From: Brumimicrobium glaciale
GTDB lineage: Bacteria; Bacteroidota; Bacteroidia; Flavobacteriales_D; Crocinitomicaceae
Assembly (NCBI RefSeq): GCF_004152935.1
Contig: NZ_SETE01000002.1
Location: 558,001-622,000 of the forward strand
Reading direction: 5' to 3'
DNA: 64,000 nucleotides
In this document: positions 5,183 through 64,000 of the stretch, piece after piece
Layout: every line of letters starts with the position of its first letter
Numbering within the stretch: the first letter of the stretch is position 1
The notes under the pieces: model-generated
Database searches by the model: none
Seen by the model: only the letters and a program-made list of their open reading frames with translations
What the model was told of the DNA's origin: nothing
Translations under genes and position numbers: made by a program

Positions 5183-5186
5183 GCTA

Positions 5187-5217
5187 CAAATATACGAAAC
5201 AAATTGTGATTTCCCAA
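5187..5217 (-). promoter_or_regulatory. Bacteroidota-type promoter of higBA, apparently leaderless
   Basis: On the minus strand, TATATTTG (5187-5194, consensus TAnnTTTG) is preceded by TTG (5215-5217) at a 20-nt spacing. The higB ATG begins only 4 nt downstream of the -7 box, so transcription should start at or within the start codon. Confidence 0.6.
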
Positions 5218-5225
5218 TTTGGGAT

Positions 5226-5304
5226 ATTTCATTCATAAAATTTGCCTGCGCGCTGTACGTCCGTACTACCAGTGCTCGAGGCTTTAACGCTAGCGTTAAA
5301 GAGG
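5226..5304 (+). repeat. Two-palindrome dispersed repeat, copy 2 (first palindrome collapsed)
   Basis: This is the same family as 3827-3930 and 9002-9106. The second palindrome, TTTAACGCTAGCGTTAAA, is intact (5283-5300), but most of the first has been deleted, leaving only ACGTCCGTAC. It overlaps the upstream side of the higB promoter region. Confidence 0.75.
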
Positions 5305-5407: not shown

Positions 5408-5525
5408 CCTAAGCCCTATCCTCTTCCGCTCCACATCCAACTGAATCACCTCCACCTCCAAATGCTCATGCAATTTCACATAATCTGCCGGATTCTCAAC
5501 ATAAACATCCGCCATATTCGATTTA
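5408..5525 (-). pseudogene. Decayed copy of the tex 3' end (S1 domain tail)
   Basis: Read on the minus strand, this stretch encodes SNMADVYVENPADYVKLHEH and then a VERKRIGL tail, nearly the same as the last 40 residues of Tex encoded at 9129-9255. The DNA match is about 118 bp and roughly 85% by eye, including an identical 27-bp block. Homology stops abruptly at 5525. It has the same orientation as intact tex and sits at the far end of the segment separating the two copies. No start codon or upstream tex sequence remains. Confidence 0.85.
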
Positions 5526-5609
5526 ATAATTAGCAATATTTTCAAATCCATCTCAAATTTGGACTACAACTCAAATTCATTTATATTTACAAACTCATTT
5601 AAGAAACCT

Positions 5610-8600
5610 ATGAAAAATAAATTAATATTTTCGCTTTTATTGCTATTGTTTTCAAGTTTTGGATTTAGCCAAGAAGCTGTTATTGAATGGCAAAAATCTT
5701 TAGGTGGATCTGGACAGGATGAGGCAAAATCTGTTCAACAAACAACAGATGGCGGATATATTATTACTGGTTTGTCTTATTCGAATGATGGAGATGTGAC
5801 AGTAAATAATGGTTATAGTGATTATTGGATTGTGAAATTAGATGCAATTGGTAGTATCAGTTGGCAGAAATCATTAGGCGGCTCTTCGTCCGATATTGCA
5901 TGGTCAATTCAACAAACATCAGATGGAGGATATATAGTTGCAGGAAGTTCTTTCTCAAATGATGGAGATGTAACAGGAAATAATGGATCGAGCGACTATT
6001 GGGTTGTTAAACTAGATGCAAATGGAGGTACAAATTGGCAAAAATCATTAGGCGGCTCTGGTAATGATGTTGCATATTCTATTCAACAAACAACGGATGG
6101 TGGATTTATAGTTGCTGGGAGTTCTTCTTCAAATGATGGAGATATAACAGGAAATAATGGATTTATTGACTATTGGGTTGTTAAATTAGATGCAACTGGA
6201 AACATAAATTGGCAAAAATCATTGGGTGGCTCTGGACAAGACAAAGCAACATCAGTTCAACAAACAACAGATGGTGGATATATTATTGCTGGATTTTCAT
6301 ATTCTAATGACGGAGATTTAACAGTAAATAATGGAGGGTGTGACTATTGGATTATAAAGTTAGATACAAATGGAAACATCATTTGGCAAAAATCAATAGG
6401 TGGCTCTGGAAATGATGAAGCATGGTCAATCCAACAAACTATGGATGGTGGCTATATTGTTGGTGGATACTCTAATTCAAATGATGGAGATGTAAATGGT
6501 AATTATGGAGCACAAGATTATTGGGTTGTTAAACTAAATACAGCAGGAAATATAACTTGGCAAAAATCATTAGGTGGCTCTGGATATGATAGAGCGCTCT
6601 CAATCCATCAAACAGCTGATAAAGGTTATATTATTGCTGGATATTCTGACTCTGACGACGGGAATACAACTGTAAGCAACGGAGGTCAAGACAGTTGGAT
6701 AGCTAAATTAAATACAATTGGAAATATCATTTGGCAGAAATCATTAGGCGGCTCTTCGTCCGATATTCCATGGTCAATTCAACAAACATCAGATGGAGGA
6801 TATATTATTGCTGGAACATCTAATTCCAATGATGGAGACGTAACTAATAATAATGGATCATTTGACTATTGGATTGTAAAACTAGAGGATATTCCTAACA
6901 TATTCGGAAAAACATACAACGACCTAAATGGAAATTGCATTAAGGAAAGTTCTGAGCCTAGTTTGTCGGGGATGCATTTGATTATTAATCCGGGTGGCTA
7001 TATTGCACAAATCAACACTAACGGTATGTGGTATCTTGATTCACTGCCAATCGGAACTTATACCGTGACAATTGACACCACAAATTTAAACTGGACACCA
7101 ACCTGTTTTGCATCACAAACCTTCATAGTTACTGATCCACAAATTTTTACACCCGGACCCAATTTTGGATTAATAAATAATAATCCTTGTAGTAGTCCTG
7201 AAATTAGTATTCAAGCACCTTTTCTGAGAAGATGTTTTAACGACCAAGTTATTTACGTTCAAGCTTGTAATAAAATCACAGCAACTGGTGTCCTTAGCGC
7301 ATCTTATGCAACAGTGGAGTTAGATTCACTTTTTACACCAACTTCCTCATCTTTACCGTATACAAGTCTTGGAAATAACACATATCAATTTGATTTAGGC
7401 GATCTCAATCCAGGTCAATGTGTAAGTTTTACTATCAACACCACGATTAGTTGTAATGCATTTTTAGGTGAAACACTTTGTATGGATGCAAAATTATATC
7501 CAATAGACAGTTGTGCTTTAGATACAATACCACCAACCCCATTGCCTTCAAATTATGGAAACAACACTAACCTTGTTATGCCTCAACCCTGCACATTACC
7601 TTGGGATAACTCAAGCTTACAAGTCGATGGATGGTGTCAAGGAAATTCTGTTCAGTTCTCGATAACTAATAATGGTGATTTAGTAAATGGTGATATGGAA
7701 TGTTATGCTCCTATTTTTCTCTATGTAAATGATACTTTAGTGAGCATAGATTCTGTTCAACTTCAAGGACAAGAGACAATTTACCTCTCTTATCCCGCAA
7801 ATGGCCAAACTTGGATTTTAGCAGCGGAACAACATCCTTTACATCCTGGAAATTCTCATCCTAATGCCCATGTTGAATTATGTGGATCTGATTCGACTCA
7901 GTGGATATCTAACATGGTAAATAACTTTCCATTGGATGATGCAGATCCCTTTGTTGACATCTACTGCGATGTTGTAACAGGAAGTTATGATCCTAATGAT
8001 AAGAGAGGTTTTCCTTCAGGTATTTCAGATCAAAACTATGTAAAACCAAATCAGCAATTGCAGTATATCGTTAGATTCCAAAACACTGGAACAGATACTG
8101 CTTTTACTGTTGTAATTCGAGACACCTTAGATATTGATTTAAATATTTTTACTGTTACACCTGGAGCATCGAGTCATAACTATACTTTTAAAAAGTACGG
8201 CCAGAGAGTGCTAGAATGGACATTTGACCATATTCTTTTACCAGACAGCACAACAAATGAGCCTGGAAGTAATGGATTTGTAACGTTTACTGTTGATCAA
8301 GTTCCTAACCTTCCAAACGGCACTATCATAAATAATCAAGCAGATATTTATTTCGATTTCAATTCTCCGATAATTACAAATGAAACGGTTCATCGCATAA
8401 ATGATATGATTGCGAGTTCACCTCTTCAGGTAAATGAAATTTTGCTCATTGAAGGAAATGTTATTAAGGTTTATCCTAATCCAAACAGTGGAATGTTATT
8501 CATAGAATTAGAAAAAATCGTTGAGCCAATTGATTACAAAATCACAAATATCAATGGTCGAATAGTGTCATCTGGAAAGCTTTCTCAACAAAAAAACAAG

Positions 8601-9128: not shown

Positions 9129-11237
9129 TTACACCCTCTTCAATCCTATCCTCTTCCGCTCCACATCCAACAATATAACCTCGACAACCACATGCTCATG
9201 CAGCTTAATATAATCCGCAGGATTCTCAACATATACATCCGCCATATTTGACTTATGAATTAAGCCATTCTCTTTGATTCCGATATTCACAAATGCACCG
9301 AAATTTGTCACATTCGTCACAATTCCATTCAGCACTTTGCCTACCGATAAATCACCAATCGTCTTGACCGTACTATCAAATTCCAGTACCTCAACTTTCT
9401 TTCTTGGATCTCTTCCTGGCTTTTTTAATTCTTTAATAATGTCTTCAAATGTAAAAGCATCTATATAAGGAAAGTCTTTTTGATTCAAACCATTCAACAC
9501 TTCTGCATTTCCAATTAAAGCAGAAACAGTCATTTTTAATTGCTTGGCCATTTTCTCAATCGCTGGATAAGTTTCTGGATGAACAGCCGAATTGTCTAAC
9601 GGATTTTTACCATCCAAAATTCTTAAAAATCCAGCACATTGTTCGAAGGCTTTTTCACCTAGTCTTTTGACTTTCTTTAATTCTAGTCGAGATTTAATTC
9701 CGTTATTTTCTCGTCGGTATTCAACAATATTTTCTGCTAGCTGTGGCCCTAATCCAGAAACGTAACTCATTAAATAGGGTGATGCGGTATTGAGGTTCAC
9801 TCCTACTTCGTTTACACAAGAAATTACAACATCATCTAAACTTTCTTTGAGGAGTTTTTGGTCTACTTCATGCTGATATTGACCAACTCCAATCGATTTT
9901 GGGTCAATTTTCACCAATTCTGCCAAAGGATCCATTAATCTTCTACCAATAGAAACCGAACCTCTTACTGTGACATCATAATCAGGGAATTCTTGTCGGG
10001 CAATTGCACTTGCACTGTAAACGGACGCTCCATCTTCAGAAACTACAAAAATCGCAACTTCAGTTTTGAATTTTATTTGTTTCACCATGAATTCTGTTTC
10101 CCTACTTGCAGTTCCATTCCCAATGGCAATTGCGTCAATTTTATACTTTTCAGTCAATTCTAAAATCTTATTTTTCGCTTTTTCTAATTCATTTTGTGGT
10201 GCGTGAGGGTAAATATTAACGTTCTCTAATAATTCTCCTGCTTCATCCAAACACACAACTTTACAACCCGAGCGAAACCCTGGATCGATAGCTAGAATTC
10301 TTTTCTTTCCTAAAGCTGGTGCTAATAAAAGCTGTCTTAGGTTTTCAGAAAATACATCAATTGCCGTTTTATCTGCTTCTTTTTTCTTCTCTGATAAAGC
10401 TTCATTTTCCAATGCTGGATGCAACAATCGTTTGTATGCATCGTGATAAGCCATTTCGATTTGCTCATTCATTGGAGAATTGTTCTTCACATAAAGTCGA
10501 TTCATGAAATCAAAAATATAGTCTTCATCTACCACAACTTTCATTCTCAAAAAGCCTTCATTGTTCGCCCTGTAAATTGCTAGAAAACGATAAGATGGAC
10601 ATTTTTTTAAAGACGAAGAATAGTCAAAATAATCACGGTATTTCTCTGCTTCTTTCGCTTTTGATTTCACCACTTTTGAAGTCAGTAAACTTTGATTTTC
10701 GTAAGACTTTCTCAATCGACTTCTGACCACACTATTTTCATTGATCCATTCAGCGATAATGTCTCTTGCTCCAGCTAATGCATCTTCAGCGTTTTTCACT
10801 TCTCCTTTTACAAAATTTTTAGCTGCAGCTTGTGGGGATTGATTTCCTTGCGACATGATGATTTTTGCCAAGCCTTCTAAACCTAACAGTCTGGCAGATT
10901 CAGCTCTGGTTTTTCGTTTTTTCTTGAACGGCAAATAAAGATCTTCTAATTCATTGATATTAAAACAGCCGCTGATTTTCTTCTTCAATTCATCCGTCAA
11001 TTCACCTTGCTCATCAATGGCTTTTAAAATCGTTTCTTGACGTTGAGAAATCTGCTTGTATTTATCGGCAACATCTCGAATTTCTGCAATCTGAACCTCA
11101 TCGAGTCCGCCAGTCGCTTCTTTTCTATAGCGTGAAATAAACGGAATTGTTCCTCCTTCATTCAGCAATTTTAGAGTTGCTTCAATGTTTTTATCTTTGA
11201 TTTGTGTTTCCCCAACGATGTAACTTAGTTCTGTCAT
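9129..11237 (-). CDS. tex: Tex, RNA-binding transcription accessory protein
   Basis: A 702-residue Tex protein. The N-terminal helical region has SRYRKEATGGLDEVQIAEIR (about 36-55). The YqgF-like RNase H fold begins around ILAIDPGFRSGCKV (about 314), the helix-hairpin-helix part includes NTASPYLMSYVSGLGPQLAE (about 480), and the C-terminal S1 domain spans about 627-702 (VGKVLNGIVTNVTNFGAFVN). Tex binds nucleic acid and associates with transcription; in Gram-positive bacteria the homologue helps rescue stalled ribosomes. Length is normal for Bacteroidota. It is monocistronic. A degenerate copy of its 3' end lies at 5408-5525. Confidence 0.95.
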   Translation of the reverse strand: MTELSYIVGETQIKDKNIEATLKLLNEGGTIPFISRYRKEATGGLDEVQIAEIRDVADKYKQISQRQETILKAIDEQGELTDELKKKISGCFNINELEDLYLPFKKKRKTRAESARLLGLEGLAKIIMSQGNQSPQAAAKNFVKGEVKNAEDALAGARDIIAEWINENSVVRSRLRKSYENQSLLTSKVVKSKAKEAEKYRDYFDYSSSLKKCPSYRFLAIYRANNEGFLRMKVVVDEDYIFDFMNRLYVKNNSPMNEQIEMAYHDAYKRLLHPALENEALSEKKKEADKTAIDVFSENLRQLLLAPALGKKRILAIDPGFRSGCKVVCLDEAGELLENVNIYPHAPQNELEKAKNKILELTEKYKIDAIAIGNGTASRETEFMVKQIKFKTEVAIFVVSEDGASVYSASAIARQEFPDYDVTVRGSVSIGRRLMDPLAELVKIDPKSIGVGQYQHEVDQKLLKESLDDVVISCVNEVGVNLNTASPYLMSYVSGLGPQLAENIVEYRRENNGIKSRLELKKVKRLGEKAFEQCAGFLRILDGKNPLDNSAVHPETYPAIEKMAKQLKMTVSALIGNAEVLNGLNQKDFPYIDAFTFEDIIKELKKPGRDPRKKVEVLEFDSTVKTIGDLSVGKVLNGIVTNVTNFGAFVNIGIKENGLIHKSNMADVYVENPADYIKLHEHVVVEVILLDVERKRIGLKRV

Positions 11238-16852: not shown

Positions 16853-17629
16853 ATGTCTAACAATTATAGCAAACATACATTACTTAAAAGCCCAACATTA
16901 TTTTCTAATGCTGTGCAAGCCTCACTTTACACAGCGAAACAGATAGCTGAACTTATTCTTGAAAAACAAAAACAGGGTTTACCAGCAGTTTTGGGATTAG
17001 CGACTGGAAACACACCTAAAAAAGTTTATAAAGAATTGATCCGTTTGCATCAATATGAAGGCTTGAGTTTTCACAATGTCGTTAGCTTCAATCTTGATGA
17101 GTATTACCCAATTGGCTCAGAAAACGATCAGAGCTATACTTACTTTATGAATCAGAATTTATTTAGTTATATAGATATCCAACCCAAAAATATTCACGTA
17201 CCACATACAGATTCTTCACCAGATCAAATAACACAATACTGTCTAGATTATGAATCTAAAATAGCCGGTTTTGGTGGTATAGATTTGCAATTATTAGGAA
17301 TTGGTCGCAATGGTCACATCGGTTTTAATGAACCTGGTTCTAGCTTTGATTCTACAACACGCTTGGTAAATTTAGACTCCATTACAAGAGAAGATGCCAT
17401 AACAGATTTTGGGACGCTCAACAAAGTTCCTCATCAAGCGATAAGTATTGGTATTCATACCATAATACAAGCAAAAAAAATCTTATTACTCGCATTAGGA
17501 GAAAGAAAATCTGAGATCATTAATGAAGCCATAAACGGTGAAATATCTATCCAAGTTCCTGCTTCTATTCTTCAAACAATGCCACAAGTTGAGTATGTGC
17601 TAGATAATGAAGCGGCTAGATTGATATAG
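16853..17629 (+). CDS. nagB: Glucosamine-6-phosphate deaminase
   Basis: A 258-residue NagB that converts glucosamine-6-phosphate to fructose-6-phosphate and ammonia in the cytosol. Diagnostic motifs are LGLATGNTPKKVYKELIRLH (about 42-61), SFNLDEYYP with the catalytic-type aspartate (about 81), GIGRNGHIGFNEPGSSFDST (about 145-164) with the active-site His/Glu region, and the C-terminal VPASILQTMPQVEYVLDNEA. Length matches single-domain NagB (about 260). It stands alone, with a terminator downstream; no nagA or transporter is near, so it may serve amino-sugar turnover, not a dedicated catabolic operon. Confidence 0.94.
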   Translation: MSNNYSKHTLLKSPTLFSNAVQASLYTAKQIAELILEKQKQGLPAVLGLATGNTPKKVYKELIRLHQYEGLSFHNVVSFNLDEYYPIGSENDQSYTYFMNQNLFSYIDIQPKNIHVPHTDSSPDQITQYCLDYESKIAGFGGIDLQLLGIGRNGHIGFNEPGSSFDSTTRLVNLDSITREDAITDFGTLNKVPHQAISIGIHTIIQAKKILLLALGERKSEIINEAINGEISIQVPASILQTMPQVEYVLDNEAARLI

Positions 17630-17700
17630 ATTGAACAACAATTGACTGAAAGTACCATTGATTCGTACGAGAATAATATTCTATGAAAATCAAAAGATAT

Positions 17701-17740
17701 AGACAAAAGAGGTTAGACAATAGACCCTCTTTTTTGTCTT
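17701..17740 (+). terminator. Terminator after nagB
   Basis: AGACAAAAGAGG pairs with CCTCTTTTTTGTCT across a loop of about 13 nt, with the T-run inside and after the right arm, about 70 bp downstream of the stop codon. Confidence 0.65.
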
Positions 17741-17741
17741 T

Positions 17742-18119
17742 CTCACAAAACTAAGCACTTATTATCGAGACCCATACAAGCTAAGTCGAGACGAATTAAT
17801 CCCGATGGATTGTCAGGAACATAGTATTCCACCTCTTTTTGAGACCAATAAAATTATGCATTCAATTAAACATTATATTTTGATTGGGCTACAAAGATAG
17901 GTCGTTAATCACTAGTTTTAACGTTGTGTTTTTCAATAATTACAGCCGATAATCGCATCAATTATTTTTTTCAGAAGTTAAACTATATTAAAAAGGAAGA
18001 AGGGATTCCTCAGTTGTTAAAACCTAAGCTATTCTCAACTATCCGAATGACAGTACATAGGGAAGTCTTTTTAAATAATTACGACTTATTTTGGTAACCC
18101 AATATTTTCATAAAAATGA
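17742..18119. repeat. Intergenic region with degenerate dispersed repeat
   Basis: No gene was seen. The stretch from about 17995 (GAAGGGATTCCTC ... CCGAATGACAG) matches a repeat also present at 61182-61240 and, inverted, at 61345-61356. The rest is unremarkable AT-rich sequence. Confidence 0.5.
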
Positions 18120-41117: not shown

Positions 41118-41137
41118 AAAAACAATAAAATCGAAAA

Positions 41138-41239
41138 CATGGGGTTTTACCCCATGCGGAAATACACCATCCCGCTGGGATTTACATTGAGTGAACCCTG
41201 AAGGGGTGGTGTATTTCCGCATGGGATTTTAATCCCATG
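41138..41239. repeat. Paired two-hairpin (BIME-like) repeat next to a transposase
   Basis: Two units in inverted orientation. Each has a CATGGG...CCCATG hairpin, a linker CGGAAATACACC and a small CCC...GGG hairpin; 13 nt separate the units. The whole 102 bp folds into one long stem (21-bp arms with one mismatch). It lies 24 bp past the transposase stop codon. Confidence 0.85.
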
Positions 41240-41262
41240 ACTAAAGATTTTTTTGTTTTTTT

Positions 41263-41715
41263 TCAGTCCCAAAGATATTTTTCATCATAGTCCATATTCT
41301 CATCTTCTAAAAGTTGAATATATTCTTCTTTAAATGTTTTCTTGGAATGATGGGCATGTTGGTTTTTGATATAATTTATCACAATTGGCGCATCATTATC
41401 TCTTAAAGCAAATGCAGCATATCCCCTTTGCCAACTGAAATTCTCAAGACTTTCATCTTTCGTTTTCATCCATTTCGAAGATTTAGCTTTTACGTTTCTA
41501 AGTAAATCCATTAATGCAACCCTGCTCGATAGCTTGCATAATATATGAACGTGATCTGTATATCCACCAACAATTATGGCTTGACATCCCATTGCGTTGC
41601 ACACACCGCCAAGATAGGCATGCAATTCCTTTTCGATAGGGCCTTTTATAAACTCTTTCCTGTATTTTGTGCTAAACACGATGTGTAAGTAATTCTTAAC
41701 ATTTGATTGTCCCAT
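41263..41715 (-). CDS. IS200-type Y1 transposase (RAYT-like)
   Basis: A 150-residue HUH tyrosine transposase. KNYLHIVFSTKYRKEFIKGP opens the domain, HVH in YTDHVHILCKLS (about 56-58) is the HUH motif, and the catalytic tyrosine is in VINYIKNQ (about 120). FSWQRGYAAFAL is typical of the IS200/IS605 and REP-associated families. The gene looks intact. A paired-hairpin repeat lies directly downstream, the arrangement of RAYT genes that act on REP sequences; no second IS end was identified upstream. Confidence 0.92.
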   Translation of the reverse strand: MGQSNVKNYLHIVFSTKYRKEFIKGPIEKELHAYLGGVCNAMGCQAIIVGGYTDHVHILCKLSSRVALMDLLRNVKAKSSKWMKTKDESLENFSWQRGYAAFALRDNDAPIVINYIKNQHAHHSKKTFKEEYIQLLEDENMDYDEKYLWD

Positions 41716-42220: not shown

Positions 42221-43516
42221 ATGGCACTCAAAATTCTAGTCACAGGAGATATTCATATCGGGAAGAAATCATCAAGTGTTAAGCAGGATACAGACGAAAG
42301 CGCTACGAAATCTACATGGGCGAAAATCGTTGATTATGCTATAATGAATGATGTGGCTGTTTTGGCGCTTACTGGAGATGTTGTGGATCAAGACAATCGT
42401 TATTTTGAAGCTATTGGACCTTTGCAGACCGGATTTGAGAAATTAAAGAAAGCTGGAATTGATGTTTTTATGGTTTCGGGAAATCATGATTTTGATGTAC
42501 TTTCTCAATTGGTCGACTCTAATTCTTACGAAAATGTTCATTTATTGGGGAAAAATGGAACTTGGGAAATGAAAACCTTTGCTAAGAATGGCGAATACAT
42601 TCAATTTGTGGGATGGTCATTTCCGAAAAGACACTTCAATGAAGATCCATTGATGACTTTTAATATTGAAGGAATTGATTCTAGTTTGACGACAATTGGA
42701 CTTTTGCATGGAGATGTTGATGTTCCTGACAGTAATTATGCGCCAATTGATTTGAATAATTTTTCGAATCTTCCTGTGAATGCTTGGATGTTGGGACATA
42801 TTCACAAACCTCAAATATTGAGAGCTGCTGAACCTTTGGTTTATTATCCAGGATCTCCGCATGCTTTGAGTTCGAAGGAAACGGGGATTCATGGACCAGT
42901 TTTATTGACTATACACTCTACTACTTCGATTGAAAAAATTCAGATTCCTTTATCGCCAGTGAGGTATGAAACTATCGCGATTGATATTACGGATCAAATT
43001 ACTGAAGCTGATGTTAGAAATAAATTGACTTCTACTTTATATGATGATGCAAAATCAAGAATTATGGAATTGGAGAAAGTTTCATTTTTGATTTATGACA
43101 TTCATTTAGTAGGTCAGCACAGTAAAATCAAGGAACTAGAAACTTGGGTTAAACCAATAATCGACGCTTATGATCAAGAAATTGATGCTACCGAAACCCG
43201 AATTTCGGTAAGAAAAGTGGTAATGAATGTCCGACCGAAAGTTGATAATTTAAAAGAATTGGCTTTGGAGTCTTCTCCTGCAGGAATTTTAGCGAATACA
43301 ATTATTGCTTTAAATAATGGCGAGACAACTGATTTTTCGGAGAAACTGCTTTTGCAATGGAAATCGATTCATTCAAATATTAAACAAGCTCCCGTTTATC
43401 AACCGTTGAATACTTCGGAAAGCTTCGATCTTGAAGAAAATCATAATGCAGAAAAGTATATCCTTAATGAATGTAATCGCATTCTTACAGAACTAATCGA
43501 ACAACAGAATCAATGA
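42221..43516 (+). CDS. SbcD/Mre11-like metallophosphoesterase (YhaO type)
   Basis: A 431-residue calcineurin-like phosphoesterase. Metal and catalytic motifs in order are GDIHIG (about 9), GDVVDQDN (about 53), SGNHDFD (about 87), LLHGDVD (about 161) and GHIHKPQ (about 191). The C-terminal half is the capping domain. It pairs with the next gene by ATGA overlap, as Mre11 pairs with Rad50 or YhaO with YhaN. It is a probable nuclease subunit in DNA end processing. Confidence 0.87.
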   Translation: MALKILVTGDIHIGKKSSSVKQDTDESATKSTWAKIVDYAIMNDVAVLALTGDVVDQDNRYFEAIGPLQTGFEKLKKAGIDVFMVSGNHDFDVLSQLVDSNSYENVHLLGKNGTWEMKTFAKNGEYIQFVGWSFPKRHFNEDPLMTFNIEGIDSSLTTIGLLHGDVDVPDSNYAPIDLNNFSNLPVNAWMLGHIHKPQILRAAEPLVYYPGSPHALSSKETGIHGPVLLTIHSTTSIEKIQIPLSPVRYETIAIDITDQITEADVRNKLTSTLYDDAKSRIMELEKVSFLIYDIHLVGQHSKIKELETWVKPIIDAYDQEIDATETRISVRKVVMNVRPKVDNLKELALESSPAGILANTIIALNNGETTDFSEKLLLQWKSIHSNIKQAPVYQPLNTSESFDLEENHNAEKYILNECNRILTELIEQQNQ

Positions 43517-46500
43517 AAAAATCACCTTACATATTAAAAGAGCTGTCGATTAAAAAAATGCCGGGATTTCCATCTGGCATGGAATCTTTGAATGATTTGG
43601 CCGCAAATGTGAATATCATCACTGGCCCAAATGCTTCGGGTAAAAGCTCGACTGCTCGTGCAATTCAAGAATTGATTTGGCACAACAACACCAAAGGTTT
43701 ACGCCTTCAAGGTTCTGTTAAAATTGACAATGACGCTTGGGAAATTGATATCGATTCTGGTCGAATTCGCACTGAAAGAAACGGAATAGATGAACAACTC
43801 AAAGGACTTCCATCTTTAGAAGGACACAAACGTTATTTACTAGCTTTGCACAACTTTGTGGAAGGTGATGAAAACGATTTAGCGAAGGAAATTGCTAAAC
43901 AATCGATTGGTGGATTTGATTTAGATGCTGCACAAAATGAGCTTGGTTATTCTGATAGAATTCAAAATTTAGGAGCGACAGATTTTAAGAAATTTAAAGA
44001 TTCAGAGAATAAATACAGAGCTATTCGAGAAGAACAAAAGTCTTTAAAGAGAGAAGAAGATTCGCTTGTTCAATTGAGAAGTCAAAAAGAAAAAGCTGAA
44101 ATAGCGAATAAACTGAATGAATTTTATACCAAAGTTGCTGAATACCTTGAATCGAAATTGATTTACAATCAGCTGACTGATCAAATTAATGAATTTCCAG
44201 AATCGATTACTAAATTGACTGGAAATGAACACAATCAAATTCAGGAATATGAAAAAGAAATTGAAGAATGTGTAATCAAAATTGACAAAGCTTCAGCTGA
44301 AATAGAAAAGAGTAAAAACGAATTAAAGAAGTTAACGATTTCAGCATCTGGAATTGAAGAAAAAACAATTTTAGAGATTCAAGAACGATTAGAGAAATTA
44401 GGAGATTTAGATAGAAACATTGCAGATTTCAAAAGTCAGATCATTCAAGAGAAAATAAAAGAGAAGACTGCTTTAAATAGTGTTGACGATTCAATTGATC
44501 CTTCAGAATGGAAGAATTTGAATATTCAAGATGTTACTGGATTAGACAAAATGTTACGTGATGCGCATCAAGCATTAGGAGAAAATAGATTTTTAAATTC
44601 AGAAATTGATTTACTTGAAGTAGAAGCGAAAAAGTTTCAAAAGGAAAATCTAAAATCAGAAACCTATACTTACGGAATAAAAACTTTAGCGGAATGGTTG
44701 AAAGACCCAACTGATTCAAAAGGAATTCCTCTAAAAACAGTGATTGTAATTTCTACTTCTGGAATAATCGCTGCGATTGTAACTTATTTCATTGGTTGGA
44801 TTGGAATTTTGTTGGGAATACTACTTTTTATAGCTGCGTATTTATTTGCAAAATCAGCAAATGGAAACGGCTCAAACTCTCTTGATATTCGCGAAAATGA
44901 CTTTAAAAAGTCGGGATTAAAATCACCATCAAGTTGGGATAATGAAAATGTAGCGAATCGAATTGATGAATTGATTGCTCAACTTTCTGATGGAAAAGAA
45001 TCAGAAAGAATTGGTCAAAGATTGAAGGATTGTCAATCTAAATTGAAGAATTTACAAATCAGAATGGATTCGCTCAATGCTGTTCGTCAACATTGGATAG
45101 AAAAACTACAAGCTGCTCCAGGATTTCCAGAAAGCAGTTCCAATGATTTCAGTAGTTTGTATTGGTTTTTGACTCACGTAAAAAATTGGCAGGAAGCGTT
45201 TATTCAACGAAAAGCTTTAGAAGTGAAAAGTTCCGAAGCAAAAGAACAATACGAAAACGAATTAAATAAAATCAATGCATTATTTAACAATTCTAACCTA
45301 ACTGAAACAAAGGATATAATTGAAGCCAAAGCGACTTTCTCTGAATTGAAAAAAGAAGAAATTATTCGTAGAAACGAGACGCAAATTATTCAACAGAAAG
45401 AAGAGGGTATTAATGAGCTATCAAATTTAAAAAAGAAAAGTAATGAAAGACGTTTAAGTATTTTTCAAACCATCGGAATAGATGAAAAGGACAAAGACAG
45501 TATTCAAGAATTGATTAAGCAATTAGCGGGATTTAAACTATTGGAGAAAGATTTCTATTCTTCAGAACAAGCTTTTCTGAAACTTGAAAGTCAATTACAC
45601 GCGCATTCTTTATTCAATGATTACGAAGAAGAAATTAAAGGTTTAGCAATTGATGAAGCGAAAGAAAAAGCGAATTTGAATAAAGAAATCGCCAATAAAA
45701 AAGAAGAGATTCAAAATGAAATTGTAGGAATTGAGACTTTAATTAATGACAAAAAGAAAGGTCACGAATTAGAAGATTTACTCACCGAAAAAGAAGAAGC
45801 TTTGGATGAATTACATCTACTTTATGAAAGAAATCTTGCTTCTACAACTGGAGAGTTAATTATCAGCGAATTAAAGAAAGAAACGCAAAATAAAAATCGT
45901 CCAGAAGTTTTTAAACGTGCTAATGAAATCTTTAATAAAATCACATTAGGACGTTATGAATTGAAATTAAACGAAAAAGAAGGTTCTAGTTTTGAAGCGA
46001 ATGACAAAGTGCTAAAACGCAGTTATAATTTATCTGAATTATCTACAGGAACGCGTGTTCAGCTTTTACTTTCTGTAAGATTAGCGTATGTAGAAACTGT
46101 AGAATCGGCAATCAAATTACCTTTATTAGCAGACGAACTTTTGGCAAATAGCGATGACGAACGTGCCAAAGCAATCATCGAAGCATTGATTGAAATTAGT
46201 CGAGAAGGCAGACAAGTATTTTACTTTACAGCACAAGCAGACGAAGTTGGAAAGTGGATGGCGCATTTAGCTCCAACAGATCTTGAATATAAAGTAATTC
46301 AATTGAACAGTAAAGGGAACGAAATTTATAATGCTGATCAGTTTCAACCAGAATTGAGTAATCTAATTTTTACGCAAGACATTCCAAAACCGATTGGAAA
46401 ATCACATAAAGAATATGGAGGGATTTTGGCTGTTCCTGCATTTAATTTACTAACTCAAGAAAACAGTGAACTTCATCTTTGGTATTTAATCGAAGATCTT

Positions 46501-46980
46501 GAATTGCTTTATTCTGCTTTAAACAGAGGATTGAAAACGTGGGGCCAATTAGAAAGTTACCACAAGAACAACGGAAAGATTGAGCATTTCGATGAAGTAA
46601 TTTTCAATCAACTTTCTGATCAAATTACAGTTTTAAATCGCTTTCAGGAACTACATAAAGTTGGACGTTCTAAGCAAATTGACAGAAGTATTTTACAAGA
46701 CTCAGGTGCTATATCAAGTTCGTTCATAGACAAAGTTTCAGAAAAGGTAATAGAGTTAAAAGGAGATCCAGTTTTATTAATTCAAGCATTAAGGAGCGGA
46801 GAAATCTTACGATTTAGGTCAGACAGCGCTGATGAATTGGAACATTATTTATTGACTGAAAGATTTATTGATGACAATGAAATTTTAGAAAATGAGGACA
46901 TTCTGGTTCGCATGCAGGCTTTGATTTCTAATTTAGATTTGCAAGCTGAGGACATAGAACGTTTTTTAAAGAGAATTTAA
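43513..46980 (+). CDS. SbcC/Rad50-like ATPase with membrane segment (YhaN type), extended C-terminus
   Basis: A 1155-residue SMC-like ATPase. The Walker A GPNASGKS is at about 38-45, long coiled coils follow, and the signature LSTGTR (about 842) and Walker B LLADELL (about 871) complete the ATPase. A pair of hydrophobic helices in the middle (about 409-448, TVIVISTSGIIAAIVTYF then WIGILLGILLFIAAYLFA) would anchor the coiled coil to the membrane, as in YhaN; there is no CxxC zinc hook. About 240 residues follow the ATPase core, a mostly helical extension not expected in SbcC. The stop is followed by a palindrome nest, and a decayed copy of the gene's 3' end lies at 48829-48963. Confidence 0.85.
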   Translation: MKKSPYILKELSIKKMPGFPSGMESLNDLAANVNIITGPNASGKSSTARAIQELIWHNNTKGLRLQGSVKIDNDAWEIDIDSGRIRTERNGIDEQLKGLPSLEGHKRYLLALHNFVEGDENDLAKEIAKQSIGGFDLDAAQNELGYSDRIQNLGATDFKKFKDSENKYRAIREEQKSLKREEDSLVQLRSQKEKAEIANKLNEFYTKVAEYLESKLIYNQLTDQINEFPESITKLTGNEHNQIQEYEKEIEECVIKIDKASAEIEKSKNELKKLTISASGIEEKTILEIQERLEKLGDLDRNIADFKSQIIQEKIKEKTALNSVDDSIDPSEWKNLNIQDVTGLDKMLRDAHQALGENRFLNSEIDLLEVEAKKFQKENLKSETYTYGIKTLAEWLKDPTDSKGIPLKTVIVISTSGIIAAIVTYFIGWIGILLGILLFIAAYLFAKSANGNGSNSLDIRENDFKKSGLKSPSSWDNENVANRIDELIAQLSDGKESERIGQRLKDCQSKLKNLQIRMDSLNAVRQHWIEKLQAAPGFPESSSNDFSSLYWFLTHVKNWQEAFIQRKALEVKSSEAKEQYENELNKINALFNNSNLTETKDIIEAKATFSELKKEEIIRRNETQIIQQKEEGINELSNLKKKSNERRLSIFQTIGIDEKDKDSIQELIKQLAGFKLLEKDFYSSEQAFLKLESQLHAHSLFNDYEEEIKGLAIDEAKEKANLNKEIANKKEEIQNEIVGIETLINDKKKGHELEDLLTEKEEALDELHLLYERNLASTTGELIISELKKETQNKNRPEVFKRANEIFNKITLGRYELKLNEKEGSSFEANDKVLKRSYNLSELSTGTRVQLLLSVRLAYVETVESAIKLPLLADELLANSDDERAKAIIEALIEISREGRQVFYFTAQADEVGKWMAHLAPTDLEYKVIQLNSKGNEIYNADQFQPELSNLIFTQDIPKPIGKSHKEYGGILAVPAFNLLTQENSELHLWYLIEDLELLYSALNRGLKTWGQLESYHKNNGKIEHFDEVIFNQLSDQITVLNRFQELHKVGRSKQIDRSILQDSGAISSSFIDKVSEKVIELKGDPVLLIQALRSGEILRFRSDSADELEHYLLTERFIDDNEILENEDILVRMQALISNLDLQAEDIERFLKRI

Positions 46981-47180
46981 CTTATTTCAAGAATAGCGAA
47001 AATTAATTTTATTGGCTCTGTTTGAAATACTGTTGGTACTCAATTTTAATCCTTTGAAAAATTAATAGTTCTACTACGAATTTAACTGTAACCTACATAA
47101 TTTGTATTTTAAAGTAATTATCCAAGTCATCATTTCATTTTTACAAGCAAGCATATGGAAACCTGTCTTTCAGCTGGTTA

Positions 47181-47373
47181 GTCCCGTCGGGACGGCATAT
47201 TAATAGCCAAGGACGTAAGTCCTTGGTTTAAAACAAATAGATATAATACAAAACCCAACAAAATCGACCTAATTGCATGCAATTAGGTCGATTTTGTTGG
47301 GTTTTGTTTCGGTTTGTATCGTTTGGCGGATGGACTTACGTCCATCCTTATTAACATGCCGTCCCTCTGGGAC
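47181..47373. repeat. Inverted two-hairpin units around a 60-bp perfect palindrome
   Basis: Unit 1 (47181-47226) is GTCCCGTCGGGAC, a 13-nt linker GGCATATTAATAG and CCAAGGACGTAAGTCCTTGG. Unit 2 (47328-47373) is the same design in reverse complement, with slightly different stems. Between them, 47248-47307 is a perfect 60-bp palindrome without spacer, centred on GCATGC. The 695-bp gap between yhaN and the permease gene holds nothing else recognisable. Confidence 0.88.
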
Positions 47374-47675
47374 TTAGAACAATAAATACTTAAATAACAG
47401 AGACTTATAAAATTAAGCGAAATGTATTTTAATAGAAAGTTTCTATTAAAATAAAAGTAGAACCAAATTAGCAATCGTTTAGCTTCATTGAAAACCATAG
47501 ATTTTAAATCTACTCACACAAAATCATATAGAACCATTTTATTTAGCATATATCACAAAAAGAACATTAGTTATATTCAATCTAAAGATGTAGTTTTATT
47601 CTCGATAAATGCATTATCATTGGTTAAGGAAAACCAGATAAAACACTAGTAAACTTACTCTTAAAACTATACACA

Positions 47676-48803
47676 ATGACGCTGTCCTTCCAAAGATTAT
47701 TTTTTGCTGTAGCATCAATATTTGCCCTTTTCGCAATCATGATTTTGGCAAAAACGATTCTTATTCCGCTAAGTATAGCATTGCTGAGTTCATTTATACT
47801 TCTACCAGTAGTAAAAAAACTCGAGAAATGGGGAGTCAATAAATCTCTTTCTGTAACGTTTTCCATTCTAGGAGTGTTTATAATAATTGGAGGGATTTTA
47901 CTTCTGTTTTCTACTCAATTCATCAAATTATCATCTGAATTTTCTGATTTTAAAGAAGAAATACTGACGGCTTTTACTGACCTTACTTTATACATCAACG
48001 AACATGTTCCTTTTCTACCAGATTTAGAAAAAGAAGATCTAATTGAAAAAATTAAAACCTGGGCTAGTGAATCAAGTGGAACCTTATTAAGTAAATCCAT
48101 CAGCGGAACGAGTGCATTTTTCGCTGGATTCATCATCTCTATTATTTTTACTTTCCTATTCTTAATTTACAGAAAAGGATTAACGAATGCATTCGCTAGT
48201 TTTGCTAAAGTAGAAAACAGGCCAAGAGTCGTTAAAATGTTAAAATCTGTTCAGCAGGTCGGACAAAAATATATTATTGGAATGGTTATTCTTATTAATT
48301 TGGTCGGATTAATCAACAGTGTAGGATTATGGATTATCGGTCTAGACAACCCCTTCTTTTTCGGATTCTTAGGCGCCACTTTCTCCATTCTTCCATATAT
48401 AGGAACAACCATCGGAACGATTATTCCAGCGGTATTTGCATTGGTTTCTTACGATACGATTTGGGTAGCTGTTGGAGTAATCATTCTATTTTGGGCTGTC
48501 CAATTGGTGACAGATAATTTCCTCACGCCAAAAATCGTAGGAAGTAGTTTGGATGTCAATGCCCTTGCCTCTATTTTAAGTATAATCGTTGGTGCTTCAG
48601 TTTGGGGAGCCGCAGGAATGATTCTGTTCCTTCCTTTTGCCGCAATGCTGAAGGTGGTTTGTGAAGAATTTGACGAACTGAAACCAATTGCTTTGCTGAT
48701 TGGGACCAAGAATTATGTAGATGATAATGGCAAGAAGAAAAATGTTGGGAAGTTTAAGAAAGCTTGGAGTTGGGTGAAAGGGAAGTTTGGGAAAGAGAAG
48801 TAG
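47676..48803 (+). CDS. AI-2E/PerM-family permease
   Basis: A 375-residue inner membrane protein with about eight membrane helices: a pair at the start (about 8-60), one near 68-85, then a cluster from about 150 to 340. The family's mid-protein loop and the segment FFGFLGATFSILPYIGTTIG (about 227-246) are typical, as is LAVGVIILFWAVQLVTDNFL-like sequence. Members are linked to autoinducer-2 export or Na+/H+ exchange; the substrate here is unknown. It lies between intact yhaN and a decayed duplicate of the yhaN 3' end. Confidence 0.88.
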   Translation: MTLSFQRLFFAVASIFALFAIMILAKTILIPLSIALLSSFILLPVVKKLEKWGVNKSLSVTFSILGVFIIIGGILLLFSTQFIKLSSEFSDFKEEILTAFTDLTLYINEHVPFLPDLEKEDLIEKIKTWASESSGTLLSKSISGTSAFFAGFIISIIFTFLFLIYRKGLTNAFASFAKVENRPRVVKMLKSVQQVGQKYIIGMVILINLVGLINSVGLWIIGLDNPFFFGFLGATFSILPYIGTTIGTIIPAVFALVSYDTIWVAVGVIILFWAVQLVTDNFLTPKIVGSSLDVNALASILSIIVGASVWGAAGMILFLPFAAMLKVVCEEFDELKPIALLIGTKNYVDDNGKKKNVGKFKKAWSWVKGKFGKEK

Positions 48804-48828
48804 GATGGTTATAAAAAGATTAATGGAC

Positions 48829-48963
48829 TTGAATTAGAACATTATTTATTGATATCAAGTAAATTTTAGGGAGTAAAGACATTATCATTCGCTTACAAAC
48901 TTTGATTTCTAATTTAGAATTGAGAAGTTCATGAAGCCGTAAAATTAATCAGACGAATTTTAA
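48829..48963 (+). pseudogene. Decayed copy of the yhaN-like gene 3' end
   Basis: GAATTAGAACATTATTTATT and CTTTGATTTCTAATTTAGA match 46834-46856 and 46919-46937 almost exactly, in the same order and orientation, with a small deletion and substitutions between them. The match ends near the original stop region (AGACGAATTTTAA). The reading frame is lost. Confidence 0.8.
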
Positions 48964-49060
48964 AAGAAAGTAAACCTTCAAGTTATCAGGTTGAAATAAT
49001 TACTTTTAGCTCTTTTTAAAACTACAAATGATACTTTAACTTTAATTCTACTCAACTACA

Positions 49061-49780
49061 ATGGCAAAATTAAAACCGAATGAAACCAGAGCAAAAACAG
49101 CTATCATACTTATATGGATTGTTTTAGGATTTGAAATTATCTCATTAATTTCAAGTTTTTTACAACTCAACCTACTCCACAATTCCGAAGCAGGTGAACT
49201 AATCACCATGGAAGAATTAAATAGCAATAATTTAAGAGTTCAGGTTATTGCAATAATGTATATCATAGTTTCAATAATTTCTGGTGTGACTTTTATCATG
49301 TGGTTTAGACGTGCATATTACAATTTACATCAAAAGGTTTCATATCTTTCTTATGACGATGGATGGGCTGCAGGAGCTTGGTTTGTTCCTATAATGAATT
49401 GGTTTCGTCCTTTGCAAATCATGAAAGAGTTATATACTTATACGCCAGAATTCCTCACAAATAAAGGTATTGAATTCGAAAACAAACTTCAGAAATGGTC
49501 TCTAATAGTCTGGTGGACTTTGTGGATTACAGGTGGTATATTGGGAAATATAGGGTCTCAATTAAGCAGAAGGGCTGAAGAAGCAGTAGAATTTATTTTT
49601 TCAACAAACATCTCAATTATAGGTAATGTTATTGGAATAGTACTCGCAATAATTACTGTGAAAATAATTTCAGATTATGCCAAAGTTGAACCGCTACTTT
49701 TCGAAACAGAAGATCTGAATGATCAAATTAACTCTGATTCGTTCAACATCGGAACCAGTACAACTCTTTTGGATGATTAA
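49061..49780 (+). CDS. DUF4328 membrane protein
   Basis: A 239-residue protein with four membrane segments (about 13-33, 62-85, 148-168 and 178-200). MWFRRAYYNLHQKVSYLSYD followed by WAAGAWFVPIMNWFRPLQIM is diagnostic of DUF4328. Function is unknown. It lies upstream of the ECF sigma pair with a 139-bp gap; TAACTTTA about 30 bp before the ATG may be the -7 box. Confidence 0.88.
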   Translation: MAKLKPNETRAKTAIILIWIVLGFEIISLISSFLQLNLLHNSEAGELITMEELNSNNLRVQVIAIMYIIVSIISGVTFIMWFRRAYYNLHQKVSYLSYDDGWAAGAWFVPIMNWFRPLQIMKELYTYTPEFLTNKGIEFENKLQKWSLIVWWTLWITGGILGNIGSQLSRRAEEAVEFIFSTNISIIGNVIGIVLAIITVKIISDYAKVEPLLFETEDLNDQINSDSFNIGTSTTLLDD

Positions 49781-49919
49781 AACACTGTATTCTGCTAAGC
49801 TACATCGAACTATTCTTAAGGTAAAAGTTAGAATTGAAAATTAGAATTGAAATAATTGATTAGTAATTCCTTAAACTTTTTTCATTTCTTTGTAAAATAA
49901 AACACTACTTTTAATACCG

Positions 49920-50471
49920 ATGAGTGAAAACGAAATAATCCAAAATGTTGCGAGCCTGCAATTAGGCGATCACGTTGCTTTGGAAAAGATATACGATAAC
50001 TATTCCCCTGCCCTATTTGGGTTGTGTTTAAAAATCGTAAAAGACGAAGCATTAGCACAAGATATTTTACAAGAAGCATTTGTAAAAATCTGGTCGAAGG
50101 TAAATACTTACGATAATAATAAAGGTTCATTTTTTACGTGGATGCTTAATATCACTCGGAATTTGGCCATTGACAACTATCGTAAAATTACAAGACATCA
50201 AACAATTTCAATCCAAAACAACGAAAAATCCGTACATATATTAAAGGATGATAAAATGGATATCCCAATTCATCATATTGGACTGAAGGATCTCGTTAAT
50301 GGATTACCCGATGAACAAGTAGAAATGATTGAATATTTATATTTTAAAGGGTATACTCAACAAGAAACTTCTGATGAGTTAAATATTCCACTTGGAACTG
50401 TTAAAACAAGATCGAGAACAGCTATTGCATCCTTGAGAGAAATTTTTAAATTATTCGTATTATGGATGTAA
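49920..50471 (+). CDS. ECF-family RNA polymerase sigma factor
   Basis: A 183-residue sigma-70 factor with region 2 (about 20-90: LEKIYDNYSPALFGLCLKIV, DILQEAFVKIWSKV, FTWMLNITRNLAIDNYRK) and region 4 (about 125-178: YFKGYTQQETSDELNIPLGT then VKTRSRTAIASLRE). It is typical of ECF sigma factors that pair with RskA-like anti-sigma proteins. It overlaps the next gene by 10 bp. Confidence 0.94.
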   Translation: MSENEIIQNVASLQLGDHVALEKIYDNYSPALFGLCLKIVKDEALAQDILQEAFVKIWSKVNTYDNNKGSFFTWMLNITRNLAIDNYRKITRHQTISIQNNEKSVHILKDDKMDIPIHHIGLKDLVNGLPDEQVEMIEYLYFKGYTQQETSDELNIPLGTVKTRSRTAIASLREIFKLFVLWM

Positions 50472-59205: not shown

Positions 59206-59697
59206 TTCTTCGCTCTAGCTCCCTATTCTAACCCCAAAATTGAAACTTAAACATTCAAGAAAAACAAAACACCAAATCGAAGCCTTTTTCTCCGCTCTCA
59301 TTCCCTTTCTCACTCTATCCTAATTCCAAAATTGAAACCAAAACCTTCGAGAAAAACAAAACAACAAATCGAAGCCAAACCTCCGCTCTCATTCCCTTTC
59401 TCACTCTATTCTAACACTAAAATTGAAACCTAAACCTTCGAGAAAAGCAAAACAACAAATCGAAGCCTTTTTCTTCGCTCTTACTCTCTTTCTCACTCTA
59501 TTCTATTCTAACCCCAAAATTGAAACCTAAACATTCAAGAAAAGCAAAACAACAAATCGAAGCCCAAACTCCGCTCTCATTCTCTTTCTCACTCTATTCT
59601 AACCCCAAAATTGAAACCTAAACATTCAAGAAAAGCAAAACAACAAATCGAAGCCTTTTTCTCCGCTCTCATTCTCTTTCTCACTCTCTCCCCCCCA
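59206..59697. repeat. Minisatellite: five tandem copies of about 92 bp
   Basis: The word ATTGAAAC recurs at about 59239, 59331, 59421, 59519 and 59610, giving periods of 92, 90, 98 and 91. Each unit holds AAGCAAAACAACAAATCGAA and a pyrimidine-rich CTCTTTCTCACTCTATTCTA end. Copies differ by substitutions and small indels. No frame stays open through it. Similar TCTCTTTCTCACTCT text occurs at about 5390. Confidence 0.88.
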
Positions 59698-61595: not shown

Positions 61596-64000
61596 ATGAT
61601 TCACTTCTTTGGAAACGTAAACGGTAAAGTATTTACTGTTCAAACAACAAAAGAATTATCAACTGAAACTACTGCCAAATTGGTGTGGTTATTTGGTGAC
61701 CAACCAAAGATAGAACAAGCATCATTAGGTGCTTTTTTTGTTGGTCCTCGTGCGGCTATGATTACACCGTGGAGTACAAATGCAGTTGAAATTACACAAA
61801 ACATGGGGATTTCTGATATCCTCCGTATTGAAGAATTTCAAGCGGTAGATAAAGATACAACGGATTTTGACCCGATGATTTCTGAAAAATATGATGGTCT
61901 TCAACAAGATTCATTTAACGTTCAGATTGATCCAGAAGCGATTCTAAATATTGAAGACATTGCCGGATACAACCAAAAGGAAGGTTTGGCATTGAACGAT
62001 GAAGAGGTTGAATATTTGGAAACCATGGCTAAAAAAATCGGGCGTCCTTTAACGGATTCTGAAGTTTTTGGATTTTCACAAGTGAATTCAGAACACTGTC
62101 GTCACAAGATATTCAATGGAACGTTTGTTATTGATGGTGAAGAGAAAGAACGCTCTTTATTCAGAATGATCAGAGATACGGCAAAAGCAAATCCAAACGG
62201 AATCGTTTCGGCATACAAGGATAACGTGGCTTTTGTAAAAGGTCCAAACGTTGAACAGTTTGCTCCAAAACGTGCTGACATTCCAGAATATTACGACATA
62301 AAAAGATTCGATTCAGTTATTTCATTGAAGGCTGAAACGCATAACTTCCCAACAACTGTTGAGCCTTTTAACGGTGCTGCAACTGGTGCGGGTGGAGAAA
62401 TTAGAGATAGATTAGCAGGTGGGAAAGGTTCTTTGCCACTTGCTGGAACAGCGGTTTACATGACTTCTTATTCTCGTTTAGAGCAAGAGCGTCCATGGGA
62501 ACAAGCTTTCGAAGAAAGAAAATGGTTGTACCAAACGCCAATGGATATTTTAATCAAAGCGTCGAATGGTGCTTCTGATTTTGGAAATAAATTTGGCCAA
62601 CCTTTAATTACGGGTTCTGTTTTAACTTTTGAACACCACGATGCTGGGAATACGCATGCAGATGCTGACCACAGAAAATTAGGGTTTGATAAAGTCATCA
62701 TGCAAGCCGGTGGAATTGGTTATGGAAAAGCAGACCAAGCAATAAAAGGTATTCCACAAGAAGGCGATAAAATCGTTTTATTAGGTGGAGAAAATTACCG
62801 CATTGGAATGGGTGGAGCAGCAGTTTCAAGTGCTGATACTGGAGCGTTTTCTTCAGGAATAGAATTGAATGCTGTACAACGTTCTAATCCAGAAATGCAA
62901 AAACGTGCGGCAAACGCTGTTCGTGGAATGGTTGAAAGTGATGAGAACTTCATCGTTTCTATTCACGATCACGGAGCTGGAGGTCACTTAAACTGTTTGA
63001 GTGAATTAGTTGAAGATACTGGAGGATTAATCGATTTAGATAAACTTCCTGTTGGAGATCCTACTCTATCGGCTAAAGAAATTATCGGAAACGAATCACA
63101 AGAACGAATGGGTCTGGTGATTGCCGAAAAACATATTGAAACACTTCAGAAGATTGCAGATCGTGAGCGTTCTCCAATGTACACGGTAGGTGATGTTTCG
63201 AACAACAATCGCTTTACATTCCAATCGAAATCTACAGGTTTAAAACCAATGGATTTTGCTTTGACAGATATGTTTGGAAGTTCGCCAAAAACAATCATGA
63301 CAGACAGCACAGTTAAACGTGTTTATTCTGATTTAGATTATAAGAAAGATAAATTCTACGACTACCTAGACCAATTATTACAATTGGAAGCTGTAGGTTC
63401 AAAAGATTGGTTAACGAACAAGGTTGACCGTTGTGTGGGTGGGAAAGTTGCCAAACAACAATGTGCTGGTCCATTGCAATTGCCACTCAACAACGTTGGG
63501 GTGATGGCGTTGGATTACAAAGGAAAAGAAGGTGTTGCAACATCAATTGGACATGCTCCAATCGCAGCATTGATTGATCCAGCGGCAGGAAGTAGAAATG
63601 CAATTACTGAATCTTTAACGAACCTTATGTGGGCGCCGTTAGAAGAAGGTTTGAAAAGTGTTTCTTTATCTGCAAACTGGATGTGGCCTTGTAAAAACCC
63701 TGGAGAAGATGCGCGTCTATACAAAGCGGTGCAAGCGGTTTCAGATTTCTCTATCGCTTTAGGAATTAACGTTCCAACAGGGAAAGATTCATTATCGATG
63801 AAACAAAAATATCCAAACGACGAAGTAATTTCTCCGGGAACGGTGATTATTTCAGCGGCTGGACATTGTAATGCAATTTCAAAAGTAGTTGAGCCAGTTT
63901 TCAAAAAAGAAGCAGGTCCAATTTATTATATCAACGTTTCACAAGATGATTTCAAATTGGGCGGAAGTTCTTTCTCTCAAATTATGGGTCAATTGGGGAA
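61596..64000 (+). CDS. purL: Phosphoribosylformylglycinamidine synthase, 5' part
   Basis: The first 801 codons of a large (PurL/PurQ-fused type) FGAM synthase, cut by the window edge. MIHFFGNVNGKVFTVQTTKE begins the N-terminal domain. The substrate and ATP motifs include SQVNSEHCRHKIFNGTF (about 167-183), LKAETHNFPTTVEPFNGAAT followed by GAGGEIRD, SIHDHGAGGHLNCLSELVED (about 451-470) and GKDSLSMKQKY near the end. It converts FGAR to FGAM with glutamine and ATP in purine synthesis. The ATG at 61596 follows a TTAATTTG promoter-like box by about 30 bp. Confidence 0.95.
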   Translation, partial: MIHFFGNVNGKVFTVQTTKELSTETTAKLVWLFGDQPKIEQASLGAFFVGPRAAMITPWSTNAVEITQNMGISDILRIEEFQAVDKDTTDFDPMISEKYDGLQQDSFNVQIDPEAILNIEDIAGYNQKEGLALNDEEVEYLETMAKKIGRPLTDSEVFGFSQVNSEHCRHKIFNGTFVIDGEEKERSLFRMIRDTAKANPNGIVSAYKDNVAFVKGPNVEQFAPKRADIPEYYDIKRFDSVISLKAETHNFPTTVEPFNGAATGAGGEIRDRLAGGKGSLPLAGTAVYMTSYSRLEQERPWEQAFEERKWLYQTPMDILIKASNGASDFGNKFGQPLITGSVLTFEHHDAGNTHADADHRKLGFDKVIMQAGGIGYGKADQAIKGIPQEGDKIVLLGGENYRIGMGGAAVSSADTGAFSSGIELNAVQRSNPEMQKRAANAVRGMVESDENFIVSIHDHGAGGHLNCLSELVEDTGGLIDLDKLPVGDPTLSAKEIIGNESQERMGLVIAEKHIETLQKIADRERSPMYTVGDVSNNNRFTFQSKSTGLKPMDFALTDMFGSSPKTIMTDSTVKRVYSDLDYKKDKFYDYLDQLLQLEAVGSKDWLTNKVDRCVGGKVAKQQCAGPLQLPLNNVGVMALDYKGKEGVATSIGHAPIAALIDPAAGSRNAITESLTNLMWAPLEEGLKSVSLSANWMWPCKNPGEDARLYKAVQAVSDFSIALGINVPTGKDSLSMKQKYPNDEVISPGTVIISAAGHCNAISKVVEPVFKKEAGPIYYINVSQDDFKLGGSSFSQIMGQLG

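Follow-up and report, generated by a model that had tools for sequence, protein, structure and literature searches.

e14 is said to integrate at the 3' end of icd and to supply a substitute end. Insertion with long target duplication was reportedly described by Nobusato et al. 2000 (Gene 259:99). As passages of three papers present it (PMC1643837, PMC3031569, PMC4978471), this process is recognized by genome comparison and places genes or small modules, with no transposase of their own, between long and variable direct repeats of the target; in Helicobacter pylori the same passages tie it to restriction-modification genes. Homology-facilitated illegitimate recombination with displacement of gene ends is proposed, in part of Kirchberger et al. 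2017 (PMC5361080), for the T6SS effector-immunity arrays of Vibrio cholerae, and an excerpt of another study (PMC2884548) puts small inserts flanked by direct repeats at 10-18% of the variable segments of three species.

We describe here a locus of Brumimicrobium glaciale (Crocinitomicaceae, Flavobacteriales; 4.27 Mb in 12 contigs) where the end of a resident gene, yhaN, lies on both sides of an inserted gene. Whatever the mechanism, it is very probable that an insertion left this direct repeat. Coordinates are those of a 64-kb window (C2:558001-622000), the whole stretch of DNA analysed, unless C2 or another contig is named (Table 1). The window also contains a TOTE conflict system primase-helicase protein at 338-3298 and tandem repeats at 5688-6886 (period of about 174 bp) and 59223-59691 (period of about 92 bp).

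Table 1. Features of the yhaN locus, of the other genes with a displaced end and of a mirror repeat in a relative.
Feature	Coordinates	Strand	Remarks
yhaN/SbcC-like gene, intact, 1155 aa	43513..46980	+	gene with duplicated end
Intact yhaN 3' end	46833..46980	+	recurs downstream
Target duplication, 8 bp, left copy	47006..47013	.	ATTTTATT
MITE-like dispersed element, 522 bp	47014..47535	.	nested palindromes; imperfect terminal inverted repeats (16/26 bp)
Rfam RF01687 Acido-Lenti-1 match within MITE-like element	47180..47226	-	46.8 bits, gathering score 37
Target duplication, 8 bp, right copy	47536..47543	.	ATTTTATT
AI-2E family transporter, 375 aa	47676..48803	+	inserted gene; PF01594
Displaced, decayed yhaN 3' end copy	48830..48963	+	
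DUF4328 gene	49061..49780	+	missing here in B. oceani and B. aurantiacum
ECF sigma factor	49920..50471	+	in B. oceani directly follows yhaN, after 164 bp
tex intact end (gene 9129-11237)	9145..9262	-	parallel case
tex displaced end	5415..5532	-	parallel case; reading frame open
Case A	C2:11135-11908		displaced piece starts 121 bp before stop
Case B	C2:351928-352404		displaced piece starts 112 bp before stop
Case C	C2:396972-397919		displaced piece starts 64 bp before stop
Case D	C2:519233-521077		displaced piece starts 113 bp before stop
Case tex	C2:567129-569237		displaced piece starts 134 bp before stop
Case yhaN	C2:601513-604980		displaced piece starts 148 bp before stop
Case F, purL-like	C2:619596-623282		displaced piece starts 193 bp before stop
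Case E	C2:631686-632384		displaced piece starts 110 bp before stop
B. aurantiacum mirror repeat	L119:15247-15583 and 17463-17798		about 1.9 kb between

The name yhaN was taken from the sequence-only reading; the Pfam match to AAA_27 lies slightly under the cut-off (21.2 against 22 bits). That reading had claimed that the 3' end of the gene recurs in degraded form, downstream and in the same orientation, with an AI-2E-type permease in between, and both points were confirmed. The copy lies 2.0 kb downstream as two direct blocks on the same strand: 46833-46855 matches 48830-48852 (23 bp, 96%) and 46863-46941 matches 48844-48922 (79 bp, 78%). A gapped alignment extended the similarity to about 48963, with 95 of 134 aligned sites identical. 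When the end was searched against its own genome (40 of 46 first-look candidates scored), the second copy was recovered at E 5.7e-12 and the best unrelated match at 0.065. The displaced end has stops in all three frames and carries a 16-bp deletion. These long direct repeats (46833-46941 and 48830-48922) flank the inserted permease gene, identified by PF01594 and the only called gene of at least 90 aa between the two ends.

A decaying piece in tandem orientation would also be left by a complete second yhaN that arose by tandem duplication and decayed in place, the permease landing in it later. However, on the same strand of 46981-50000 the rest of yhaN gave no match better than E 0.1, and with no other part of the gene repeated nearby, a decayed full copy becomes unlikely. 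None of the relatives examined carries a second yhaN, each of the three genus relatives that have the gene giving a single match, and displaced pieces of similarly short length occur at eight genes of 0.5-3.7 kb. We regard this history as improbable.

The palindromes behind yhaN are real and belong to a dispersed 522-bp element with a target duplication of its own. Its insertion point is 33 bp behind yhaN; its ends, at 47014 and 47535, are sharp and the 8-bp duplication is exact. With 40 of 68 candidates scored, at least 25 near-full copies of the element's core (47150-47400) were counted across the genome. An alignment of seven dispersed copies showed that they share the sharp ends; the 8-bp duplication was exact in two of the seven (the yhaN copy included), matched at 7 of 8 positions in two and was not seen in three, and the terminal repeats agreed at 16-21 of 26 positions in five copies and at 12 and 6 in the other two. 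An ISL3 partner transposase (PF01610) was sought in the genome and none was found. The ten core copies listed on C2 all fall between called genes, and only the yhaN copy lies within any of the eight gene-end cases described below. The element is thus MITE-like and independent of the gene-end repeat: having its own edges and an exact duplication, it marks a separate event and very probably was not the agent of the yhaN repeat. One arm matches the Rfam family Acido-Lenti-1 on the minus strand; since this match sits in a mobile MITE-like element, it points to repeats among the members of that RNA family.

A Y1_Tnp (RAYT-like) gene at 41263-41715 adjoins an imperfect 145-bp inverted repeat (41118-41260), and the genome has nine Y1_Tnp matches. 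The suggestion that the palindromes formed part of the insertion route is not supported, given the element's own 8-bp duplication and the single core copy, among the ten listed on C2, that lies in a gene-end case. For the same two reasons we think it highly improbable that the gene end owes its displacement to the palindromic element or to the RAYT transposase found 5 kb upstream, even with palindromes between the two ends and a Y1_Tnp gene at hand.

In B. oceani the order is an sbcD-like gene, yhaN (once), 164 bp of spacer, the ECF sigma factor and an anti-sigma factor. In B. aurantiacum yhaN and sigma are separated by a small gene that looks MazF-like by eye, and B. mesophilum has neither sbcD nor yhaN at this place. 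Because the permease and DUF4328 genes are absent between yhaN and sigma in relatives, both are additions of this lineage, with the displaced yhaN end sitting between them. B. oceani also lacks DUF4328 at the locus, so more than one event separates the two genomes. DUF4328 was considered as the native neighbour of yhaN and rejected, its 58% relative in another genome (G001) occupying another setting. Of 240 family genomes searched, four have full-length yhaN: the source genome and 3 of the 9 others in its genus; the remaining 230 have none. The sbcD-yhaN pair (window 42221-46980) is itself patchy across the genus.

The nine other genus genomes hold permease relatives at 29-33% (best 33%), and among the other 239 family genomes only two better matches were found, at 57% in another genus and 35% in a third. 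A permease with no close relatives in its genus and two better matches in the family is as expected for acquired DNA. We found no donor in which yhaN stands beside such a permease: the family relatives of the permease adjoin no yhaN, the 1.5-kb flanks of the 57% relative read through without one, and that distant genus, which has the nearest permease, has no yhaN match. PADLOC gave no match on the permease cargo. A search for the native junction by spacer comparison gave no clear match in B. oceani; against B. mesophilum and B. aurantiacum, nearly all of 200 shuffles were topped by a few scores, which are not interpretable.

The yhaN end is not the only one displaced. Among 671 genes in 860 kb, eight have their end, or a piece no more than 110 bp from it, repeated downstream, in direct orientation and within non-coding DNA, and in all eight the displaced piece starts 64-193 bp before the stop. 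One is tex, whose end recurs at 84% over 118 bp and which had rightly been likened to yhaN. Over the same 860 kb, the last 150 bp of genes of at least 600 bp were compared with non-coding DNA up to 5 kb downstream, with four other 150-bp segments of each gene (first, quarter, half and three-quarter) as controls. Gene calls followed a simple longest-ORF rule; in this test and in the count of eight genes alike, matches of less than 50 bits, more than 30% inside called genes or less than 150 bp from the gene were left out. Gene ends proved the commoner, the last segment recurring downstream in 6 of 471 genes as compared with 2 of 1,884 control segments (Fisher p = 0.0012), or 4 against 2 when tex and yhaN, which had prompted the test, were removed (p = 0.017). 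By control position, the downstream recurrences were 0 (first), 1 (quarter), 0 (half) and 1 (three-quarter). Upstream, the same segments recurred 2, 1, 1, 1 and 0 times, four of these recurrences coming from one repetitive gene.

When 400-kb parts of three other genomes were scanned, downstream recurrence was seen for the last segment of 1 of 719 genes, over 38 bp, and for 1 of 2,876 control segments; gene-end cases numbered 8 of 671 in the source genome as compared with 2 of 1,002 in those three (p = 0.012). B. oceani had no displaced gene ends among 75 genes. A displaced purL piece was found in B. mesophilum (L181:3556-3658; 83% over 103 bp, without the last 140 bp), and the pieces in this species and in the source genome both lack the last 100-140 bp. 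The purL-like gene, at window positions 61596-64000, runs beyond the window edge, and small toxin-antitoxin-like genes were seen by eye behind purL in several relatives. The mirror arrangement, at 5' ends, was also observed: in B. aurantiacum a 337-bp direct repeat (95%) surrounds two divergent gene starts, and a B. mesophilum gene has 241 bp of its start repeated upstream at 88% (L182:4844-5254 and 7389-7627). On another contig a single gene is flanked by a 92-bp direct repeat (L043:3834-3922 and 5166-5254; 80%), the copies mostly non-coding. Given the 5' cases, the 3' bias is real in the sample and not absolute. The proposal of a recurrent insertion route at gene 3' ends thus stands in part: the excess is there (6 of 471 genes), but it was seen in the source genome only, and 5' mirror cases exist.

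The cargo is an AbiEi/AbiEii-type pair in case A, DUF3127 genes and others without a match in case C, an FkbM methyltransferase domain in case D, a protein with a beta-lactamase-family fold domain and one other in case E, and a DUF7619 protein with a sorting tail at tex; the cargo of case F gave no match and the insert of case B has no called gene. None of the inserts scanned showed a restriction-modification system. A tyrosine recombinase that integrates site-specifically at a gene end and provides a substitute 3' end would give an equal geometry (substitute end, cargo, displaced end), the recombinase since lost or acting from elsewhere, and an ORF behind tex in one relative (G005) resembles, by eye, the C terminus of such an enzyme. 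Against it, the called genes of the yhaN insert include no integrase, of the five PF00589 matches in the genome a single one falls on C2, at a distance of 174 kb, and the eight targets are unrelated and share no left-edge motif by eye. Site-specific integration is therefore unlikely.

Insertion with long target duplication has a better claim. The event itself would have copied about 150 bp of target, leaving two ends identical at birth, of which the outer one decayed. The inserts are indeed flanked by direct repeats of 64-155 bp, and in case C the repeat (83% over 155 bp) covers the end of one gene, the spacer behind it and 63 bp from the start of the following gene, both genes remaining whole. 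An outer end copied at insertion would be expected to lie at a greater distance from relatives than the intact one does. At yhaN this is so: at differing sites the displaced and intact ends agreed with B. oceani at 9 and 21, with B. aurantiacum at 7 and 16, and with G005 at 10 and 22. The purL-like gene (case F) gave 2:21 in B. oceani and 1:18, 3:20, 0:21 and 3:18 in four other relatives, and by identity its intact end was nearer for all five. The yhaN and purL copies thus resemble plain decay.

The ends of tex and gene A behave differently from a copy without function. With B. oceani the displaced tex end agreed at 19 and the intact end at 5 differing sites (p = 0.007; this and the p values below on the native end are single tests over four to seven cases). 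The signal came from B. oceani only among five relatives, which weighs against import of an end at tex; the other four gave 13:13, 13:8, 10:9 and 10:10. Gene A gave 5:4 and 6:3 in two relatives. By identity the displaced end was the nearer for all five relatives at tex and both at A, over slightly different lengths, and in comparison with B. oceani the intact end of tex shows no greater difference than the remainder of the gene. Differences between the two ends were in excess at third codon positions at tex (16 of 30 sites, p = 0.019) and A (6 of 8, p = 0.020), and seven cases pooled gave 47 of 110 (p = 0.025); none of B, C, D, yhaN (7 of 17) or E showed such an excess. The displaced tex and A ends also retain open frames. 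Together, the third-position excess and the open frames indicate that the two ends of these genes probably diverged as working genes, which is unexpected for a copy functionless from birth. The excess hints that one end was imported in two of the seven cases. For a hybrid gene formed at a single homologous junction, the signal is weak at tex and A and absent at yhaN.

B. oceani has TOTE-type genes behind tex, and the displaced tex end lies on the TOTE side here; B. mesophilum (G004) has an Lrp-type gene 1.1 kb behind gene A, and here the displaced A end lies 160 bp from an Lrp-type gene. What fits tex and A best is that the native end was pushed outwards and the intact end imported, or the outer end may have been imported together with its neighbours. 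At yhaN, where the displaced end is the farther and there is no codon signal, plain duplication and decay would give the same result, and this counts against end import there. The choice at yhaN thus lies between an imported end and duplication of the target; we lean slightly towards the former, and the latter is possible, if somewhat doubtful.

The leaning towards import translates into the following order of events. DNA with the permease gene would have recombined with the final 150 bp of yhaN and so entered behind it, most likely bringing along a homologous yhaN end of its own, attached to the permease. This end, once paired, would have anchored the insertion, one junction being homologous and the other, near the end, poorly so; the intact gene would retain one end and the other would be displaced outwards. 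The product would run from the complete yhaN through the insert to a second, identically oriented yhaN end and on into the old downstream DNA, and the outer end, with neither start nor function, would decay. The MITE would have jumped into the spacer later. Taken whole, from the incoming end joined to the permease to the later MITE, we hold this account to be slightly more likely than not.

A broader reading, which we offer tentatively and regard as doubtful, is that the lineage gains genes by swapping ends, with no integrase: cargo carrying the last 100-200 bp of a resident gene would recombine there, giving the gene a foreign C terminus and pushing the native end out. Gene 3' ends might then serve generally as landing sites, since an insertion there spares the gene and costs only a tail, and the direct repeats might let the insert leave as a circle carrying the same end. 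The yhaN-permease locus is in itself ordinary. Displaced gene ends are datable scars that record where, and on which side, single genes entered with no recognizable mobile element, and with this pattern sequence alone would suffice to count integrase-free gene gain in any genome. Should one of the two ends prove regularly foreign, the scars also show that resident proteins have their C termini replaced in such events.

With e14 in icd the cases share their geometry; unlike it, they involve many unrelated targets, and the yhaN insert has no integrase. As in the displacement described in part of the V. cholerae T6SS work (PMC5361080), a segment arriving with homology at one side would be anchored there and push the old 3' end downstream; whereas that account, in the same part, concerns toxin loci and useful displaced immunity genes, the Brumimicrobium genes are ordinary and their displaced ends useless. 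With the segments treated in PMC2884548 the likeness is one of small inserts with direct repeats, which the excerpt of that study explains by deletion between the repeats. Together with this end displacement by homology-facilitated illegitimate recombination, long target duplication is the closest parallel, in that with it direct repeats flank inserted single genes with no transposase of their own. Unlike the Helicobacter cases, those described here involve permease, AbiE, FkbM methyltransferase-like and secreted-protein genes, belong to the Bacteroidota and show an excess at 3' ends, and the copies at two Brumimicrobium genes may have differed from the start. Among the best 4 of 11,948 literature matches for long target duplication combined with names of Bacteroidota, none contains the phrase. 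The Brumimicrobium cases are further examples, and their route resembles the gene gain already described in Helicobacter.
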